Positions 4,513 through 64,000 of a stretch of DNA of 64,000 nt are shown piece by piece (position 1 is the first letter of the stretch; the number at the start of each line of letters is the position of its first letter). Under the pieces are notes generated by a model, which was given only the letters and a program-made list of their open reading frames with translations, did no database searches and was not told the DNA's origin. The DNA comes from Synergistaceae bacterium. Lineage in GTDB: Bacteria; Synergistota; Synergistia; Synergistales; Aminobacteriaceae. The position numbers were made by a program, and so were the translations under genes. The DNA is taken from positions 62,001 through 126,000 of the forward strand of contig JAFYBQ010000028.1 in the NCBI GenBank assembly GCA_017540085.1, read 5' to 3'.

Positions 4513-5309
4513 GGCGATATTTCAGGCGGTAAAATATATCCCTGAGAACGAGTTTTGCGGATGATATTGCTTCGGGAAGAACGTTAAATATTTTCCGTAT
4601 GTTTCTGCTGAAGAGCCTGTATTCAGGGGCTGAGATTTTCGCGCGGGCTGATATTGCGTCAATTAATTCTTCACGGCTGCTGTTTTCGCCCCATGCGCTG
4701 TGAGTATAATACTTCCAGTAAAGAGTCTGGCTCGGATGGCCTGAAATTTCCCAAGGTTTTACTGCTCCGGCAAAATGAAGCACAGAGTTTTCTGTTATGC
4801 CTCCCGGATTTGTCCCGCTAATGACATTGAAACGGCTGTCTATAATTTTTATTGAGCCGCGGAAAATGCTGTTGTATGCGTCCTGATCCGGGCATGAGGC
4901 GTTATGTATATGCTTTCGGAGCCATTCAGCCGTAATAATATCCTGAGCCGCCAGCCTGAACAATGAACCGACAGTGAAACTTCTGCTGATAGATTCTGGG
5001 ATATTCCTGCCAAGCCCTGCCATTTGCCGCGTAACATCGTGAAGCTCAAGACCCTGCGAATATTTTTCCGCTGTCCGTATGAATTTCTGCCTGTTGTCGT
5101 CTGTGAGTGTGTCGTCATGTAGAATGTGAACTGTAACTTTGCTGTGAGTGTTCTCGAAAATTTAAGTCATTGTGACTCCGGCGTGCTGTGAATACGTGCC
5201 TGAAGGATCATATACCGCCAGCACTATGTGAATTACGTCATCTGATTTTGGGCATGAATCAGCGTTGGGCGTTGGGCGTTGGGCGTTTATATCCACAATA
5301 TTCCGTCAA
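4499..5309 (-). pseudogene. Decayed family 8 glycosyltransferase (LPS glycosyltransferase type)
   Basis: Translation shows a GT8 N terminus (VIHIVLAVYDPSGTYSQHAG), a middle part (VTVHILHDDTLTDDNRQKF, then FTVGSLFRL) and a C terminus (CPDQDAYNSIFRG, HFAGAVKPWE). Three lesions are visible. First, an in-frame TAA at 5162-5164 replaces the Ser of a [T]SIFENTHS stretch, one base from TCA. Second, the text jumps from SLFRLAAQDIIT to AEWLRKHI, so roughly 90-100 residues including the DXD metal/donor motif are missing. Third, the best start (TTG 5307-5309 after AAGGAG) is one base out of frame with the body because of a heptamer repeat. Only 174 residues remain open from the ATG at 5023. It would have decorated LPS or capsule; adjacent rml genes supply rhamnose. 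Confidence 0.8.
5263..5287. repeat. Heptanucleotide tandem repeat (GTTGGGC x3)
   Basis: Three exact copies of GTTGGGC at 5264-5284 plus a partial fourth lie inside the 5' end of the GT8 remnant. Seven is not a multiple of three, so each gain or loss changes the reading frame. By my count two or five copies would join the TTG start at 5309 to the downstream GT8 frame. Confidence 0.8.
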
Positions 5310-5344
5310 TGTCAATATCTCCTTTCTGATGAATGGCGAAATTA

Positions 5345-55814: not shown

Positions 55815-56744
55815 TTATTCCGATGTTACGAGAATTTCGCCGTCCCCCGAAAACGCATAATCATGTTCACAGTTACACGGCACGAAAATATTTCCCCCCT
55901 TCAGCAGCCCGCACGAAAAATCACCGCACCTGAACACGCATTCACCGTCAATGCACATCATGAAGCGGAAGCCTTTTCCCTGAGTGTTACCCGTGAAAGG
56001 AGCGCGGAGTCTCTCAGCCCGAAATTTGTTGCAGCTCACTATGACATTTCCCGCCCGGCCCGGAGGCGTGATATTCAGCGGGAATGTGTTTGTTACGTCA
56101 AGTGCCTTGCGTATGTGAAGCTCCCGCGGCTTTCCGTCTGCGCCTAATCTCCCGTAATCGTATACCCTGTACGTTATGTTGCTGTTCTCTTGAATCTCTG
56201 CTAACGTTATCCCCGCCCCGATTGCGTGAATCGTCCCGGCAGGTATGAAGAACATATCACCGTCATTAACATAAATTTTCCTCAGAATGTCCGTTAATGT
56301 CTCATCCATTATTGCCCGCTCAAATTCACGCCGCGTAACATGCCTGCTGAAACCGAGATATATATACGCTCCTTCCTCATGGCCGAGAATGTACCACGCC
56401 TCAATTTTTCCCCGGCTGTGTTCGACTCTCCGTGCGTATTCCGTGAACGGGTGAACCTGAACCGACAAAGGCCGGGCAGCGTCAATCAGTTTCACCATAA
56501 GCGGGAAAGAATCATCAGGGCTGAATTTTCCTGAGACTATCGCCGGAAATCTCCTCACAGCCTCCGAGAGAGTCAGCCCGGATAATTCGCCGTCAAGAAT
56601 GATATTGTCCCCGTCCGGGTGAGAGGCTAATTCCCAGCTCTCAGCGAGAGTTTCAGACTCAGGAGTCTTCCTCCATGACGTTATGAGATTCTTACCGCCC
56701 CATATGTAGTCCTTGTAGACCGGCTTTAACCTGAACGGCAGCAT
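55815..56744 (-). CDS. manA: Mannose-6-phosphate isomerase, type I
   Basis: 309-residue zinc cupin enzyme interconverting mannose-6-phosphate and fructose-6-phosphate. PLMVKLIDAARPLSVQVHP (zinc ligands Gln and His), EAWYILGHEEGAYIYLGF, FIPAGTIHAIGAGITLAEIQ and SNITYRVYDYGR match. Placed 3 bases after alr on the minus strand, so the two are one unit. It supplies mannose units for surface sugars. Confidence 0.93.
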   Translation of the reverse strand: MLPFRLKPVYKDYIWGGKNLITSWRKTPESETLAESWELASHPDGDNIILDGELSGLTLSEAVRRFPAIVSGKFSPDDSFPLMVKLIDAARPLSVQVHPFTEYARRVEHSRGKIEAWYILGHEEGAYIYLGFSRHVTRREFERAIMDETLTDILRKIYVNDGDMFFIPAGTIHAIGAGITLAEIQENSNITYRVYDYGRLGADGKPRELHIRKALDVTNTFPLNITPPGRAGNVIVSCNKFRAERLRAPFTGNTQGKGFRFMMCIDGECVFRCGDFSCGLLKGGNIFVPCNCEHDYAFSGDGEILVTSE

Positions 56745-56747
56745 GAT

Positions 56748-57908
56748 TTACACCGACATTTTTCCGCCGTCAATGTAGACTCTTGGGACTCTTGCTGACG
56801 GAGCGCAGACTATCTCATGAATTATTGTCCCGGCGTTTTTCGCGGCAATGGGTGCAAGTTCCCCGTCAAGAATCACAGCGACATCCCCGGCTTTCACGTT
56901 CGGTACATCAGTAACATCAATCATCATCATGTCCATGCACACCCGCCCTAACACAGGACACGCCGCCCCGTGAACTTTCACGCCGTAATTGTTCGACAGT
57001 ACGCGGTGAACACCGTCAGCATATCCTGCGGGAATGACTGCGATAACAGAGTCGCGCTTTAGGGTATACGTTCGCCCGTAGCTTATTGTCGTTCCCGCCG
57101 GAAGATTCCTGACCGCCGTAATCCTGCTCTTGACGGTCATAACTGGGTGAAGTCCTAAGTTGCTTCCCTCGTTGCCTGTTTCTGTTGACGCATAGCCGTA
57201 AAGGACGAGGCCGAATCGTCCCATGTCTAAATGTGCCTCCGGGTAATCAATAACTCCCACAGAGGCCGCAGAGTGTACTATCTCGAAATCGCGTCCCATT
57301 CCGTGAAGGTACTCCCTTGCGTCAAGAAGCCGGGACAATTGCAGGCGCGTATAGTCAGAATCCCCGTCAGCCGCGGCAAAGTGCGTGAACATTCCTTCAG
57401 CATATAGCCCGGGCATGTTGCAGACTCCGAGAATCTCACGCGCTGTAGACTCTTTCCCACCGTCATCATCAGGCCAGTAAAATCCCGTCCGGCTCATTCC
57501 CGTATCAACCTTAATGTGAACGCGGATTGATTTCCCCGATGAGGCCGCGTAATCTGAGAGGGCTTTTGCGTTCTGAGAGTCGCCGACCGCCTGTGTGATT
57601 CTGAAATCGGCCATGAGTGAAGCGAGATCGGGAGTCGTTTGTCCGAGACATAATATCGGAATCGTTACGCCGTTTTTGCGGAGTTCGACTCCTTCCGGGA
57701 TTGTTGCGACCGCGAGCCAGTCCGCGCCGGAGTCCTGTAACTTTTTGGCGCATTGAGTCATTCCGTGCCCGTATGCGTTTGCCTTCACGACTCCGAGAAA
57801 TTTTGCTGACGGTGAAAGATGAGTCCTCAGAATTTTTGCGTTTAATGCGAGTGCGTCAAGATTTATTTCCGCCCACGTTCTTGAAAGCGCGAGTTCTAAT
57901 TCTGTCAT
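56748..57908 (-). CDS. alr: Alanine racemase
   Basis: PLP enzyme making D-alanine for peptidoglycan. 386 residues from the ATG at 57908. The PLP Lys is in VVKANAYGHGMTQ, VDTGMSRTGF is the second signature, and the catalytic Tyr is in the RTYTLKRDSVIAVIPAGYAD segment; CMDMMMIDVTDV is also conserved. It heads the alr-manA unit next to the long non-coding stretch. Confidence 0.95.
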   Translation of the reverse strand: MTELELALSRTWAEINLDALALNAKILRTHLSPSAKFLGVVKANAYGHGMTQCAKKLQDSGADWLAVATIPEGVELRKNGVTIPILCLGQTTPDLASLMADFRITQAVGDSQNAKALSDYAASSGKSIRVHIKVDTGMSRTGFYWPDDDGGKESTAREILGVCNMPGLYAEGMFTHFAAADGDSDYTRLQLSRLLDAREYLHGMGRDFEIVHSAASVGVIDYPEAHLDMGRFGLVLYGYASTETGNEGSNLGLHPVMTVKSRITAVRNLPAGTTISYGRTYTLKRDSVIAVIPAGYADGVHRVLSNNYGVKVHGAACPVLGRVCMDMMMIDVTDVPNVKAGDVAVILDGELAPIAAKNAGTIIHEIVCAPSARVPRVYIDGGKMSV

Positions 57909-58310
57909 CAAAAAAATTGCGCCGTATACCCCTTGCTTTCGCTATGGGGAGGAGGCGCATACCTCCTATTTCTTGTTGTAACGCCCAAGGGCGTGCGGGC
58001 TTTATATCTGCTAACATGAAACAGACCTCCGCCCGCTAGAGTAATAATCCTTCGCCAATGTTATCCTGCGGTTTTGTATGCTTGCAACACTGTCCCTACC
58101 CCTCAGAACTGCTTAATCACAAGCCGCAGTGCTACAGATTAGGATTTACGTCCGTAGGTGCCTATATATTCGCAGGCAACGTAGCTTACGCTAAGGCTAG
58201 TCAGTCAAGGCTTTTACAAGCCTCCGGCTTTAGCCGTGAGGTTACTGACTATGATTCTCCTTGTGGATTGTATGAGGGATATTATATCTTCACTGCGTAA
58301 TTTTTCAGAC
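57909..58310 (+). mobile_element. Relic resembling an IS200/IS605 (TnpB) right end with omega-RNA-like hairpins
   Basis: No intact gene. Several hairpins lie in series: AGGAGG/CCTCCT near 57950-57967, perfect ACGCCCAAGGGCGT at 57981-57994, and at 58198-58251 an 8-bp outer stem TAGTCAGT/ACTGACTA enclosing CCTCCGGCT/AGCCGTGAGG. The last structure (AAGCCTCCGGCTTTAGCCG then ACTGACTA) is of the kind found at the 3' end of TnpB genes, where it forms the guide-RNA scaffold. tnpA and tnpB are absent. Frames here are short and lack domain similarity that I recognise. Confidence 0.5.
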
Positions 58311-58371
58311 AAAAACGCCGGGCATATAGTGTAAAATACTCGCGCAAAATTTTTCGTTTACGTGAAGTGAT

Positions 58372-58382
58372 TGCACAGTGCA
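58372..58382. promoter_or_regulatory. Perfect palindrome upstream of the surface-operon promoter
   Basis: TGCACAGTGCA (5-bp arms around a single A) lies about 26 bases before the -35 box. It may be an operator. No regulator gene is nearby. Confidence 0.3.
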
Positions 58383-58407
58383 TACTGAAAGACAAGCAAT
58401 AACCCTC

Positions 58408-58437
58408 TTGACATTCCGCGAAAATCGTAATCATAAT
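58408..58437 (+). promoter_or_regulatory. Strong promoter of the surface-protein operon
   Basis: A consensus TTGACA (58408-58413) stands 18 bases from CATAAT (58432-58437). It is directly followed by the octamer repeat, so transcription should start at or inside that repeat, about 175 bases before the first ATG. Confidence 0.7.
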
Positions 58438-58441
58438 TGTT

Positions 58442-58485
58442 ACGGGCTTACGGGCTTACGGGCTTACGGGCTTACGGGCTTGGGC
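58442..58485. repeat. Octanucleotide tandem repeat (ACGGGCTT x5)
   Basis: Five exact copies of ACGGGCTT at 58442-58481 plus a partial sixth (GGGCT). The array starts 5 bases after the -10 box and so lies at the predicted transcription start and beginning of the 5' leader. Copy number is likely variable between strains. Confidence 0.85.
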
Positions 58486-58618
58486 TATTCATATGCGTAA
58501 AATCCCTTCACATATTCGGATTCACCTGACGAGATTTTTCCTTTGAGCGCAAATTCAGATGTGCGGATTCATTTTCCGTGCGAGTCATTCAACCACAAAC
58601 ATAAAGGAGAATCTCAAT

Positions 58619-59440
58619 ATGAGTATCAGAAAATTAACATCAATACTTATCACGGCATTAATACTTTTCGGCGCAACATCAGCATTCGGAGCAGAATACA
58701 AAACAAAACTCACGCTCACAGTCGCTCACGCCTCAACAACAGATGAGGCATACGTCCTCACTGTCCCTGCCGACCTGACGCTTTCAGGTTCGGGCTGGAA
58801 CTCAATCGGTAACGTCAACGTTGCTCATGACTCAACAAAAACAACGACAACATTCGACACTTCAAAGAAAGTTGTTGTTACTGCGTCATCACAGAACAGC
58901 GGTCTCACTAACACTACAGACAGCACCAAGAAAATCTCCTACACCTTCAAGAATGCTGAGACTGAAACAGGCGACGGTTCAAGCAATCTGTCGATCGAGT
59001 TCTCAGCGTCAGAAATCAACACTTCGGGCGGAACAAATAAGTCTTTCGGTATCGTAGTTGCCGACACAAGCAGTGCAAGCAACGGAACATACGAGGACTA
59101 CATCACCTACACGGCGGAAGTTCAGTCGGCAGCCACAACCACCACCGTAACATGGAATGCCTCTGACATAACCGGCAGCGGTAATTCATTCACCAAAGAC
59201 AACGTTACCATAACTGCCGGTAGCATAGATTTCCGCAATAAGACTTTCTATGAAGGCGGAACATTCACGACTACTCTTGGGAAATTCACCAAAATTGAAA
59301 TCACTGCCGGTGACTTGGAGGAGTTTAGTGGCGGCGAAGGCTGGTCAGGAGGTACATGGACAGGCACTGCGTCCAACAGCGTAGCGTTCGGTAGGGATAT
59401 TGCGCTAATTTCAACGATAGTCTTTACGATTGAGCAGTGA
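58619..59440 (+). CDS. Secreted beta-rich surface protein
   Basis: 273 residues from the ATG at 58619 (AAAGGAGA upstream). Signal peptide SILITALILFGATSAFGA. The mature part begins EYKTKLTLTVAH and is very rich in Thr, Ser and Asn, poor in Cys and Trp, with repeated strand-like segments: VPADLTLSGSGWNS, KVVVTASSQNSGLTN, GTYEDYITYTAEV and a second beta domain after residue 180. It looks like an extracellular adhesin or pilin-like subunit; no family is certain. The next gene starts on its stop (TGATG), and the third protein begins its mature part with the same YTTKLTLV pattern. Confidence 0.8.
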   Translation: MSIRKLTSILITALILFGATSAFGAEYKTKLTLTVAHASTTDEAYVLTVPADLTLSGSGWNSIGNVNVAHDSTKTTTTFDTSKKVVVTASSQNSGLTNTTDSTKKISYTFKNAETETGDGSSNLSIEFSASEINTSGGTNKSFGIVVADTSSASNGTYEDYITYTAEVQSAATTTTVTWNASDITGSGNSFTKDNVTITAGSIDFRNKTFYEGGTFTTTLGKFTKIEITAGDLEEFSGGEGWSGGTWTGTASNSVAFGRDIALISTIVFTIEQ

Positions 59441-59808
59441 TGAAGACAGTTTTACTCGCGCTGATTATCGCACTGGCCGCAAGTCCTGCATTCTGCGGAG
59501 AGATACATATTCCGGGCTATGAGGTGATTCACTTCAAGGCTGACAGTATCGAACAGCAGGTGTTTTTCCGAAACCCTGAGGAGAACGAAAGCTCTTTCAG
59601 AATGAGCATATACCTTTCTGACGGTTCACTCATCTGGAAGTCAAAGGACGTTCTTAATCCGGGAGAGGTCTTCCTGAGAATCGACCTCGAAAGGGAATTG
59701 AGGCGCGGAATTTACACTAATGCTCTTCTGAAGTATGAGTGCTGGACTGTTGACGGTAAATACAGAATGAACGGTGCAGAAATGCGGGTAACTCTGCTAT
59801 TCGAGTAA
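59440..59808 (+). CDS. Small exported protein of the surface operon
   Basis: 122 residues. Signal peptide VLLALIIALAASPAFCG, then IPGYEVIHFKADSIEQQVFF, RNPEENESSFRMSIYLSDGS, LNPGEVFLRIDLERELRRG and MNGAEMRVTLLFE. I recall similar small exported proteins beside surface beta-proteins in gut Firmicutes; their function is not known to me. The predicted all-beta single domain could be a subunit or chaperone-like partner of the first protein. It overlaps that gene by one base, so their synthesis is coupled. Confidence 0.78.
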   Translation: MKTVLLALIIALAASPAFCGEIHIPGYEVIHFKADSIEQQVFFRNPEENESSFRMSIYLSDGSLIWKSKDVLNPGEVFLRIDLERELRRGIYTNALLKYECWTVDGKYRMNGAEMRVTLLFE

Positions 59809-59854
59809 TGAAAGCAACACAAAATTTCAAGGAAGAAGGGAGGGAGGAAATATC

Positions 59855-61657
59855 ATGAGAAGAAGAATCATGACGGCGTTAATATTTTCTGTTCTTGCGG
59901 TGTTCTTTGCTGTGTCGTCTGAGGCGGCATACACGACAAAATTAACGCTCGTAATCAACAGGTCTGCTCCCGTGAAAGTCAGCGCGGATCAAATTTCTTC
60001 TGACGGAACATTTCACGGGACTGTCGACTCTCGCAAAACGTCAACGGACTCGCATGGCCGGAGAACGTCAGAGACTCATACGCTTTTCACGAACAGGGCG
60101 GGAATCATAATGATGTCGGCTGATGTCCGTATCGCGTCAATGTCTGATGACTACAAAGCGTTATCGGGTGAAAAGTTTGCGGAGACTCTGAGCGTTGACT
60201 CGGTGATTGAGCTTTACGACTCTGCGTATGACAGCTATACATACTCGCTTGATGTCAAAGGACTTCCCGAATGGCTGAAAGTTTCGGGCGCAACAAAGAC
60301 CAGTGAGTCAATATCTGTCGGAGTGAGTGAACACCATCATGAATTTGTGATTGCCGGGACTCCTGAGCGTGAATATGACACGGCCAATATAATTTTCACG
60401 GCGTTAATATTCGTGTCGGGTGATTATCCCGCAATGCTCGCAAAGGTCAGCAAGGACATAAATATTTCTGCCGAATCGATTCCGAAACCGCCTGACGAGA
60501 TTCCGAAATCGCCGGATATTGTGCCTAAGTCGCCTGACGTTGTGCCGAAATCGCCGGATATATCGCCTGACGTTGTGCCTAAATCTGACGATGTAACGCC
60601 TGACGTTGTGCCAAAGTCTGACGATGTAACGCCGGATGTCGTGCCTAAATCTGATGACGTATCGACAACGCCGGATGAATCATCGACAACGCCGACAACA
60701 ATTGACACTGGCGGAACTGGTACGGGCGCAGGGACTCGGACTCTTGCTGAGGCAGTAAGGAGCATGACACCAGCGCAGAAAGCAGCGGTTAAAGTCCTGA
60801 AGGTTGACGCAGGCATAACGAGTCTTGAAGGGCTTGACGAGTTCACGAACCTCGAACGCCTTGACCTGAAGGAAGCATTGAGCCTCGAAACGGTGAATCT
60901 CAGCGGTAATTCGTCCGTAAAGAGCGTAGATATTGCCGGAAACATGGCCGTGAAGACTCTGACTCTCACAGGAAGCAGGGTAGAAACTCTTGACGCGTCC
61001 GGATGTGAGAGTCTCGCTGAGGTGAACGTTGCCGGGTGCGTGTCGCTGAAGTCTCTTAACGTCAGCAATACGGCGATAACGAGTCTTAACGCTGAGGGGT
61101 GCACGGGTCTTGAAGTGCTTGACTGTTCGCACTGTCAGCTTGAGGATTTGAGGCTTACGGGATGTGAGTCGCTGAATGTTCTTGATTGCAGCTATAACGA
61201 TCTTCACAGGCTTGATGTGTATATGCTGCTGCGGCTTGACGTTCTCAGGTGCGAGCATCAGATAGTGTACGGCCCGAATATAGGCAGAGTGCTTGACATG
61301 TCGCAGTATTTCGCGGGAATATCAGCGTCAGGGAACGAGTCATATGACTCAGGAGTCGAGAACGTGATAAATCTCCGGGCGTTTGATTCGTCAGGGCGTG
61401 AGATTTCCTCCGAGTACGATAAAGAGACGGGCATAGCGTCATTCAGCGAAGAGCCTGCAAGGATAACGTATGACTATATTACGGGCTTCAGGGACGTATA
61501 TATGGACGTAACAATTTATCCTGCTGACGAAAGCGGCGGCGGTGAATATGGTGTGCCTAATGAAAGATCCGGGTGCAGTGCTGTATCAATCCTGCCATTG
61601 TTAGCGGCGATGATGATTATTGTCGCGGGTGTAAGACATCTTCACAGGAGGATTTGA
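59855..61657 (+). CDS. Leucine-rich-repeat surface protein with Synerg-CTERM-like sorting tail
   Basis: 600 residues, strong RBS (GGGAGGGAGG). Signal peptide ALIFSVLAVFFAVSSEA; mature start YTTKLTLVINRSAPV as in the first gene of the operon. A beta-rich domain (~25-205) is followed by a Pro-Lys-Ser-Asp repeat linker (~208-275), then leucine-rich repeats (~310-460: LTLTGSRVETLDASGCESLA, LNVSNTAITSLNAEGCTGLE), a C-terminal domain and the tail ERSGCSAVSILPLLAAMMII ending in basic HLHRRI. The tail has Gly-Cys, a membrane helix and a basic end, as in Synerg-CTERM signals. LRRs suggest binding to host or other cells. Confidence 0.85.
   Translation: MRRRIMTALIFSVLAVFFAVSSEAAYTTKLTLVINRSAPVKVSADQISSDGTFHGTVDSRKTSTDSHGRRTSETHTLFTNRAGIIMMSADVRIASMSDDYKALSGEKFAETLSVDSVIELYDSAYDSYTYSLDVKGLPEWLKVSGATKTSESISVGVSEHHHEFVIAGTPEREYDTANIIFTALIFVSGDYPAMLAKVSKDINISAESIPKPPDEIPKSPDIVPKSPDVVPKSPDISPDVVPKSDDVTPDVVPKSDDVTPDVVPKSDDVSTTPDESSTTPTTIDTGGTGTGAGTRTLAEAVRSMTPAQKAAVKVLKVDAGITSLEGLDEFTNLERLDLKEALSLETVNLSGNSSVKSVDIAGNMAVKTLTLTGSRVETLDASGCESLAEVNVAGCVSLKSLNVSNTAITSLNAEGCTGLEVLDCSHCQLEDLRLTGCESLNVLDCSYNDLHRLDVYMLLRLDVLRCEHQIVYGPNIGRVLDMSQYFAGISASGNESYDSGVENVINLRAFDSSGREISSEYDKETGIASFSEEPARITYDYITGFRDVYMDVTIYPADESGGGEYGVPNERSGCSAVSILPLLAAMMIIVAGVRHLHRRI
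60478..60670 (+). repeat. In-frame repeat encoding Pro-Lys-Ser-(Pro/Asp)-Asp linker
   Basis: Direct repeats of about 21-33 bases encode IPKSPDI, VPKSPDV and SPDVVPKSDDV/TPDVVPKSDDV units. All are multiples of three, so length can vary without loss of frame. It separates the N-terminal beta domain from the LRR domain. Confidence 0.8.
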
Positions 61658-61748
61658 TAACAACAAAGGGGGCTGAAATATGCCCTCTTTATTTTTTCTG
61701 TGCGATAATACAAAGCCAGCAACAAAATTTTTGGAGGAATAATATATT

Positions 61749-63356
61749 TTGGATTTCAACTCATACGGCCTCAGAAAGGAATTATTATCCGCCCTCAGTG
61801 AACACGGATTCGACTCCCCTATGGACGTTCAAGACAGGGTGCTTTCTGAAGACTGGAACAGCGATTTAATTGTCCGGGCTAAAACGGGTTCGGGAAAAAC
61901 ATTAGCATTCTTGCTCCCGTTAATGCAGGAAATGAAGATAGGCGAGCGAAACCCGCAGATACTCATCCTTGCGCCTACACGCGAACTTGCACAGCAGACA
62001 GCAGACGAGGCAGAATTTCTCGGCAAATTCCTCAAAGTATCATGCGCTTCACTTGTCGGGGGAATGGACATTGTTCCGCAGCTCAAAACGTTAAAGCACG
62101 GAGCCGCAATCATAGCCGGGACTCCCGGGCGCGTAAGAGATCACATTCAGCGCGGGACTCTGAAGACTGACGAGATTCACAGCGTTGTGCTTGACGAGGG
62201 CGATTTGATGCTTGACATGGGATTCCGTGAAGAGCTTGAAGCGATTCTTGACGCAATGCCGGACGGGCGGAGATGGCTTTTCTCCGCGACAATGCCCCCG
62301 GAAGTCAGAGAGCTTGCCGGGAAATATCTCAATGACCCGTTAATGCTTGCGGTTGATGACGAGGGCGAACAGCACGGCGACATTACGCACAGGGTATACA
62401 GGATTCCTTCGCAGAAAAGATTCGAGGGACTCGTTGATATTCTCCTGTGGGAACATCCATCGCGGACGCTTGTTTTCTGCCACACGAAAATGGAGTCGAT
62501 AGAGATCGCGCAAAGATTGCAGGATCACGGCTTCAGCGCGGCGGCCATGCAGGGGGACATGACTCAGGGCGAGCGAAACGCGGTATTAGCCTCGTTCAAA
62601 TCGGGGTCAGTCCCGTGTTTAGTCGCAACAAACGTAGCGGCGAGGGGACTCGATATTGACGGAGTGAGCCACGTTATACAGCTTGGGCTTCCTGATGACC
62701 GCGAGACGTTCATTCACAGGAGCGGGAGAACTGGCCGGGCAGGTCATGAGGGAGTGAATATCGTCCTTCTTTCACCGCCTGAAATCGGGAGATTCCGCGA
62801 GATGTTACGGGGGACGAACATCAAAACCGACTGGCAGGACATTCCCGGCCTCGACAAAATCCGCAGTGCATGGAGAGATTCAGCCGAGCAGGATATTTTC
62901 GCGGCTCCTGTTGACGCTGATTTTAGCGAGTGCGTGAAATGGGCCGAGGACATGATGACGCGGGCAGAGCCGAAAATAATCATCGCAAAACTTCTCGCAG
63001 TCCTCAGCACACGCAGCAAGGGTTACGCATTAGACCGCGAATTACAGCGCGAGCAGGAACGGAGGAACAAGAAGCCCTCAAAGACTCCCAAGTCCCAGAC
63101 GAAAGCAGGGACATCAAAGCCCAAGGGAGCATTCAAGCGTTTCAAGAGTAATCAGTCTCAGGATGTCGGGCATGTTCTGAATGCTATGTGCCGTGCGCTG
63201 AAGGTTGAACGCTCAGAAGTGGGAGCTATACGGCTGAAGGACAATCATGTAATTGTCGAGCTTATGCCGCTTGCGGTGTCGAGGCTTGAGCAGGGGATTG
63301 CGGGATTGTCGAAATTCGGACTCTTCCCGGACGAACAGAAAAAGCGCGGGCGTTAA
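61749..63356 (+). CDS. DEAD-box RNA helicase (CshA/DeaD/DbpA-like)
   Basis: 535 residues, TTG start after GGAGG. The Q motif (FDSPMDVQDRVL), Walker A AKTGSGKT (Lys50), PTRELAQQ, TPGRVRDH, motif II DEGD (149-152, Gly where Ala is usual), SAT, and HRSGRTGRAG are present. After ~380 comes a helical region, a Lys-rich linker (NKKPSKTPKSQTKAG) and a C-terminal DbpA-type RNA-binding domain (IRLKDNHVIVELMPLAV). It probably remodels rRNA or mRNA. Monocistronic, with a terminator. Confidence 0.93.
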   Translation: MDFNSYGLRKELLSALSEHGFDSPMDVQDRVLSEDWNSDLIVRAKTGSGKTLAFLLPLMQEMKIGERNPQILILAPTRELAQQTADEAEFLGKFLKVSCASLVGGMDIVPQLKTLKHGAAIIAGTPGRVRDHIQRGTLKTDEIHSVVLDEGDLMLDMGFREELEAILDAMPDGRRWLFSATMPPEVRELAGKYLNDPLMLAVDDEGEQHGDITHRVYRIPSQKRFEGLVDILLWEHPSRTLVFCHTKMESIEIAQRLQDHGFSAAAMQGDMTQGERNAVLASFKSGSVPCLVATNVAARGLDIDGVSHVIQLGLPDDRETFIHRSGRTGRAGHEGVNIVLLSPPEIGRFREMLRGTNIKTDWQDIPGLDKIRSAWRDSAEQDIFAAPVDADFSECVKWAEDMMTRAEPKIIIAKLLAVLSTRSKGYALDRELQREQERRNKKPSKTPKSQTKAGTSKPKGAFKRFKSNQSQDVGHVLNAMCRALKVERSEVGAIRLKDNHVIVELMPLAVSRLEQGIAGLSKFGLFPDEQKKRGR

Positions 63357-63499: not shown

Positions 63500-64000
63500 C
63501 TACTGACGCTTCAATGCACCCTCAATTTTTTTCTTGAACTGACGCGCCGGAACATACTGCGGAAGAATCTCAAGAGACTTGTTTACCCACTGCATAGACA
63601 TGTCATAGTCGGCCATGTCGTAAGCGTTGACTGAAGCCCTGTATGCCGCAAGATAATCCTGCGGGTAGTCGCTGAAAATCATAATGTATCTGTCGAATCT
63701 CTCGCGTTTCCCCGCGCCCCTTTCGGCGGAGTGGTGAAGGTCGAGAAGGTTCAGCGTTGTAGTCTCGTCAAGTCCGTAGCTCGGTATGACTTTCTCCGGG
63801 TCTGCTGAATATCTTTCGTAGTTGGCCGATGCTTTCGGCTTGGGAGACGGAAGCGGAGTCGAAATCGGAGTCGGAGTCGGCGTTGGAGTCGGAGTCGGAG
63901 TCGGCGTTGGAGTCGGAGTCGGCGTGGGAGTCGGAGTCGGCGTGGGTGTCGGCGTTGGTGTAGGTGTCGGAGTCGGTGTAGGTGTCGGAGTCGGATCTGG
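63500..64000 (-). CDS. C-terminal part of a protein with a long Thr-Pro linker
   Basis: The frame is open from the right edge to the TAG at 63500, about 166 residues. It begins with a continuous (Thr-Pro)n tract of about 40 residues, then PKPKASANYERYSADPEK, and ends in a tetratricopeptide-like helical region (DYLAAYRASVNAYDMADYDM, VNKSLEILPQYVPARQFKKK). An internal ATG at 63682 is not the true start. The Thr-Pro tract is typical of an extracytoplasmic linker. What lies N-terminal is outside the window, so function is unknown. Confidence 0.75.
   Translation of the reverse strand, partial: PDPTPTPTPTPTPTPTPTPTPTPTPTPTPTPTPTPTPTPTPTPTPISTPLPSPKPKASANYERYSADPEKVIPSYGLDETTTLNLLDLHHSAERGAGKRERFDRYIMIFSDYPQDYLAAYRASVNAYDMADYDMSMQWVNKSLEILPQYVPARQFKKKIEGALKRQ
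63865..63996 (-). repeat. Hexanucleotide-type repeat encoding (Thr-Pro)n
   Basis: Degenerate tandem ACTCCG/ACACCT/ACGCCG/ACACCC hexamers, all coding Thr-Pro. Length changes stay in frame. Confidence 0.85.

Follow-up and report, generated by a model that had tools for sequence, protein, structure and literature searches.

Phase variation of surface genes by repeats within coding sequences is well known from the lic genes of Haemophilus influenzae and the opa genes of Neisseria. For the H. influenzae genes hmw1A and hmw2A, a heptamer tract, (ATCTTTC)n, has been described between the promoters P2 and P1; at hmw1A this tract shares bases with the -10 box of P2 and is carried in the 5' UTR when transcription starts at P2, and more copies lead to less product (passages of PMC8262952). 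The (AGAT)n tract of Moraxella catarrhalis uspA2 is located 132 bp upstream of the open reading frame, and the transcript level is tied to the number of copies (passages of PMC7302503). Two repeat families with heptamer units have also been reported, namely the TAACTGA repeats of Beggiatoaceae, with many arrays per genome near start codons (passages of PMC4679880), and the GGGAATC quadruplex repeats of Xanthomonas and Nostoc, which form G-rich arrays (passages of PMC4692102). No report on phase variation in Synergistota or on tandem repeats in Fretibacterium, a member of that phylum, was found among the titles and abstract openings of the open-licence PMC literature.

The window analysed here is a stretch of 64,000 nucleotides from a Synergistaceae genome (contig 28, 62001-126000), in which a short tandem array stands between a promoter and three genes (Table 1). 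The first-pass annotation had described a TTGACA/CATAAT pair followed by five exact repeat copies and a three-gene operon, and both were confirmed. CATAAT is followed by the four bases TGTT and then by five exact copies of ACGGGCTT, starting at 58442, 58450, 58458, 58466 and 58474, which puts the start of the first copy at the fifth base past the -10 box. Read in the register of TTACGGGC, the array gave 100% matches and a TRF score of 84. A perfect short tandem repeat thus stands at a surface gene, as in described contingency loci. When two tandem units were searched in the window's own genome (G000) with up to two mismatches, four perfect matches were obtained, all within the window array, and six single matches with two mismatches were located outside it. 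The promoter scored 11/12 and was the top of eight sigma-70-like sites within 57000-62000; since shuffled sequences contained 6.3 such sites on average, the promoter scan by itself is no proof.

Table 1 Features of the window and their coordinates
Feature	Coordinates	Strand	Remarks
Second promoter-array module	5262-5315	-	TTGACA (5310-5315), spacer 18, TATAAA
HEARO RNA (RF02033)	58041-58249	-	125.5 bits, cut-off 83; repeat about 57905-58256
Possible upstream -10	58332-58337	+	TAAAAT in GTGTAAAATA; by eye, unscored
-35 box TTGACA	58408-58413	+	Identical in 8/8 aligned surface loci (7 genomes)
-10 box CATAAT	58432-58437	+	Spacer 18 from TTGACA
Octamer tandem array	58440-58481	+	TTACGGGC x 5.2; predicted transcription start in unit 1
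Leader, 137 bases	58482-58618	+	First part conserved in 9 loci / 7 genomes
Ribosome binding site AAAGGAG	58603-58609	+	First gene
ORF 1, 273 aa	58619-59440	+	Signal-peptide-like start (by eye)
ORF 2, 123 aa from GTG	59437-59808	+	122 aa from ATG 59440
ORF 3, 600 aa	59855-61657	+	Leucine-rich repeats (LRR_4), hydrophobic C-terminus (by eye)
Terminator-like hairpin	61665-61690	+	3' of ORF 3

The array ends 122 bases before the AAAGGAG and 138 bases before ATG 58619. No ribosome binding site was found upstream of the window TTGACA, and no open reading frame links the sequence before the array to ATG 58619, because the leader has stops in all three frames. The array is thus predicted to belong to an untranslated leader, and frame switching was ruled out at the window locus. 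It adjoins the -10 box, is predicted to be transcribed and is followed by a ribosome binding site of its own standing, which corresponds to the hmw1A type of arrangement. A conserved leader fold was also considered as the cause of a length effect and rejected: the window leader alone gave a z score of -0.26, and the consensus fold from an alignment of nine leaders had five pairs at -0.42 kcal/mol, so that neither fold was supported. Sequence resembling GTGTAAAATA was seen by eye about 100 bases upstream of TTGACA at sister surface loci, and the -10-like site at 58332 could serve as the main promoter instead.

No Pfam family was assigned to ORF 1 or ORF 2. ORF 3 contains in-frame 33-base repeats at 60503-60661 (TRF), which form a linker rich in proline, lysine, serine and aspartate. 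The second module of the window carries the array AACGCCC x 3.7 (5262-5287, minus strand) and precedes a glycosyltransferase 8-like frame (PF01501, E 2.8e-10) with an in-frame stop. Near the end of the window, a GGAGTC hexamer array (63843-63995), with a unit divisible by three, has no adjoining promoter. An Rfam scan of 56500-62000 returned only HEARO, an RNA family associated with IscB, which lies between a racemase gene and the window promoter. The window's own genome has seven HEARO matches, one of them above the cut-off, and many copies at contig ends. HEARO was rejected as the cause of the array and regarded as a separate insertion, since some 150 bases lie between its end near 58256 and the promoter, and the array of a relative (G031) aligns only from 58329.

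The promoter and leader were kept before homologous genes in other species (G numbers other than G000 denote relatives), with copy number and unit varying. In this comparison, made between species with one genome per species, the octamer has 5 copies in the window's own genome, 7 in G031 and at least 7 in G010, where contig ends interrupt the array; three loci of G030 have the 7-base unit TACGGGC in 7, 12 and at least 17 copies; CGGCTAT x5.4 was found in G001, CGGCTGT x2.3 in G032, about two CGGCTRT units in G004 (by eye), and CACAG x10.4 in G026 and x2.8 in G007. Among eight aligned promoters from seven genomes, identity was 88% in the -10 box and 65% in the spacer, beside the invariant -35 box, and the 17 bases upstream had 71% identity to the window. 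The conserved first part of the leader contains 24 invariant columns. Homologs of ORF 1 were found by profile search in 16 of 43 genomes of the genus. Arrays accompany the surface-protein homologs of these 16 at nine, and in 7 of the 16 genomes none was found in the fetched flank of the surface-gene homolog. A changed unit at a constant place speaks for the repeat itself being kept, and against both a fixed operator and a G-quadruplex.

The link between arrays and promoters was then counted over the whole of the window's own genome (2,168,954 bases) with exact arrays of period 5-12. The final count required a pair score of at least 10/12 and spacers of 15-18, with no fixed A/T demanded in the -10 box. 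Among arrays of at least 3.3 copies, 11/14 of those with a unit not a multiple of three adjoin a near-consensus sigma-70 pair, compared with 0/7 of the multiple-of-three arrays and 116 of 50,000 random positions (binomial 4e-27, Fisher 0.001). With the threshold at 3.0 copies the counts were 11/20 and 0/10, and 280 kb of G031 gave 4/4 and 0/3; stricter earlier criteria gave 8/30 for arrays overall and 9/14 for those not a multiple of three. The exceptions among the 14 were the arrays of contigs C5 and C34, which start at contig ends, and that of C37, which lacks a proper pair; the C5 unit recurs at the end of C10 in an array linked to a promoter. Sites with at least two copies numbered 12/261 (some weak and probably due to chance) versus 9/1,296 shifted positions. 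The idea that strong promoters give rise to arrays as a side effect was rejected, since only 8 of the 62 sites scoring 11-12 have one.

When the pattern of AAAGG, TTGACA, 16-18 bases and ATAAT was searched in the 43 genomes of the genus, 136 matches were obtained (30/43 genomes with a match), and the reversed pattern gave 4. All 12 matches of G034 are followed by an array. Twenty-seven loci were inspected (L410-L436, three from other genera); in the 23 of the genus (L414-L436), an array of at least two copies was read as present in 16 and absent in L414, L415, L418, L420, L424, L425 and L434. The element set combined 20 of L410-L436 with L437-L456 and G000 into 53 elements (51 distinct), with 8 of 11 pattern matches taken from G024, and those with at least 1.9 copies made up a sample of 40 arrays. 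Because this sample was picked by TTGACA and ATAAT, the association is tested without that choice only by the genome surveys. Judged from sequence, the modules form a genus-wide family, in which an array of 5-, 7- or 8-base units starts 0-4 bases past a near-consensus -35/-10 pair.

The unit length in the 40 arrays was 5 in 19, 7 in 18, 8 in 2 and 10 in 1, the last being doubtful (L450, 1.9 copies, before lepA). All 30 distinct units are stop-free in sense and 18 of them in antisense; shuffles reached 30 in 0.34%. The first ATG within the promoter-like stretch is distributed over the frames as 25, 11 and 1 of 37, and the frame with the single ATG is the one that reads TAA inside ATAAT (P 6e-6). 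Most sister arrays are read through by an open reading frame joined to the gene, as in coding-frameshift loci, so copy number shifts the frame there. Among 21 loci with a long frame entering the array, an in-frame ATG precedes the array in 9 and does not in 12. An enzyme domain begins 3-5 residues past the array at several loci, including glycosyltransferase 2 (L444, L456), Stealth CR1 (L447) and acyltransferase 3 (L423), and hence the start codon must precede the array. Ten other loci have a separate ribosome binding site for the gene downstream of the array, and in six of these a short upstream frame stops within 8 bases of the gene start in one copy-number class; in four it does not. These features are read here as marks of translational phase variation. 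With stops in all three leader frames, frame switching of the sister-locus kind does not apply at the window locus.

Downstream of the sister modules lie genes for glycosyltransferases, acyltransferases, capsule and other surface components. A Pfam match was obtained for 24/29 downstream open reading frames, mainly glycosyl, acyl and sugar transferases: glycosyltransferases 1, 2, 4, 11 and 61, Branch, bacterial sugar transferase and Stealth, as well as polysaccharide pyruvyl transferase, MBOAT, acyltransferase 3, DUF2142, methyltransferases, flagellin and an Ig-like protein. Matches to radical SAM, ornithine cyclodeaminase and, after the doubtful array, LepA were also present. A flank like CTATTGTCT or CTATTGCCTT recurs after many arrays, untranslated ones included (L417, L428, L448, L451 and contigs C4 and C13 of the window's own genome). 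Ten of the 84 contig ends of this genome fall in tandem arrays (C5, C8, C10, C27, C29, C32, C34, C36, C41, C42), with shared units at the C10 end and C5 start (ACCAC) and at the C8 end and C36 start (AGACAGC); this would fit either length heterogeneity or arrays beyond the span of the assembler, neither of which is proven.

Taken together, the most probable explanation, at a probability of about 0.6, is that the window holds a simple-sequence contingency (phase-variation) locus whose array lies in the untranslated leader and grades the output. The layout kept at homologous surface genes and the promoter-abutting arrays across the genome indicate that the array belongs with the promoter. What can be read from the DNA (the array, its promoter match, the conserved layout, the genome-wide association and the sister-locus frames) is consistent with this explanation, and we infer slippage, the transcription start and an effect on expression. 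The array adjoining the -10 box would form the first transcribed bases of the operon mRNA, copies presumably gained or lost by slippage would lengthen or shorten the untranslated leader of this secreted-protein operon, and operon output would change in a graded fashion with leader length, an effect proposed by analogy with hmw1A. Most sister modules also contain a ribosome binding site and a start codon and have the array read through; there, copy number modulo 3 would switch the gene, or a short upstream frame ending at the gene's start. Of the first-pass proposal of repeat-based phase variation, the general idea is favoured by the kept layout, the varying copies and unit and the genome-wide association, and the part in which copy number alters the transcription start was not supported: the array starts 2 bases past the -10 box, so by the standard distance from -10 to +1 unit 1 should always stay in the start region, and extra copies should only lengthen the leader.

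A second explanation is that the near-consensus sigma-70 pair makes RNA polymerase open and transcribe the array and thereby raises slippage, the pair being kept for mutability over mRNA supply. At the sister loci the -10 box comes after a ribosome binding site and a start codon, so RNA from the near-consensus pair could not make the protein, and the pair in these coding loci either serves another RNA or fires into the array. Its retention despite spacers of 15, 16 and 17 (3, 21 and 16 of 40) and across the two main codon frames suggests that it is kept as DNA, and an extended -10-like site seen by eye before the ribosome binding site is on offer as a separate mRNA promoter. The scarcity of arrays at strong promoters as such, given above, also agrees with this. 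However, the array at C37:41237 and the C8/C36 halves, with an acyltransferase-like frame through the array, have TTGAAA about 22 bases from GATAAT, which implies that a promoter pair is not obligatory. Furthermore, 55% of the 40 elements have CATAAT, a weaker -10 box than TATAAT. This explanation was thus held to be unlikely, and so was its genus-wide form, in which a sigma-70 promoter in the start region fires into the array and initiation sets the rate of length change and switching.

Neutral tandem expansion without function, or an assembly artefact, was a further explanation considered. Slippage does create short arrays, and arrays of TACGGGC are not limited to the genus. They were found in 10 of 180 genomes of the order; at five from other genera (G109, G147, G151, G158, G160) the array starts 2 bases after a -10-like hexamer, which in G160 is a poor match (TACCCT). 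At three loci from another family (L233, L234 and L235, in G151, G158 and G160), an ATG lies 12 bases before the CTTGAC that precedes the array, and the open frame reads PLDxxIKPxTxL, so that there, too, one stretch can be read both as promoter-like and as coding. Among the matches listed, TACGGGC arrays also occur in unrelated bacteria (Halomonadaceae, Stutzerimonas, Akkermansiaceae, Variovorax), away from any obvious promoter; by eye none was seen at seven arrays (L088, L091, L106, L109, L110, L121, L163). A scan of viral contigs gave 28 stretches. Neutral expansion would nevertheless not be expected to produce the promoter association, the avoidance of multiples of three, the stop-free units and the frame avoidance, and the array was assembled independently in several species. 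These origins were therefore considered distinctly unlikely.

A fixed multi-site operator, or an RNA-binding platform for a regulator, would agree with the conserved position and leader, and a polymerising protein could use direct repeats as its binding sites, but homologous loci differ in the sequence and length of the unit and in copy number, and 30 distinct units occupy the same place across the genus, which makes this reading very unlikely. Least probable of all is a G-quadruplex on the nontemplate strand or in RNA acting at the start site: arrays of TTACGGGC and TACGGGC with at least four copies do have at least four GGG tracts, but these are not kept in homologs, where CGGCTAT, CGGCTGT and CACAG lack GGG.

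If the contingency-locus explanation is correct, dozens of surface-glycan genes would be controlled by chance, and cells probably switch their surface coats at random by means of this repeat family. Such a large phase-variation repertoire is apparently undescribed in Synergistota, a little-studied, host-associated phylum. Since promoter and array are so constantly paired, it also becomes testable whether transcription initiation at a repeat controls its mutation rate.

Compared with the described systems, the Beggiatoaceae repeats have one fixed unit in the passages of PMC4679880, while here each locus has a different unit; with 30 distinct units, membership in a one-unit family of the TAACTGA type was rejected. 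The likeness to the GGGAATC repeats, as presented in the passages of PMC4692102, lies in G-rich arrays, while GGG is not kept at homologous loci here. The sister loci resemble lic and opa in having an array between start codon and enzyme domain, with a unit not a multiple of three and a mix of in-frame and out-of-frame states; unlike lic and opa, a sigma-70 pair overlaps the start codon and adjoins the array, and the window locus itself is noncoding. A tandem tract upstream of a surface-protein open reading frame is shared with uspA2, whose unit is a tetranucleotide and for which the passages of PMC7302503 mention no adjoining promoter. The closest system is hmw1A. The first-pass annotation had called the layout less usual, and the heptamer tract overlapping the -10 box of hmw1A P2 provides a precedent (passages of PMC8262952): in both cases the tract stands at the -10 box of a surface promoter, in a 5' UTR that is predicted at the window locus. 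The hmw1A tract overlaps the -10 box and is a heptamer, while the window array lies 2 bases after it and is an octamer with few copies, and the layout found here, compared with hmw1A as described in those passages, recurs at many loci with different units.
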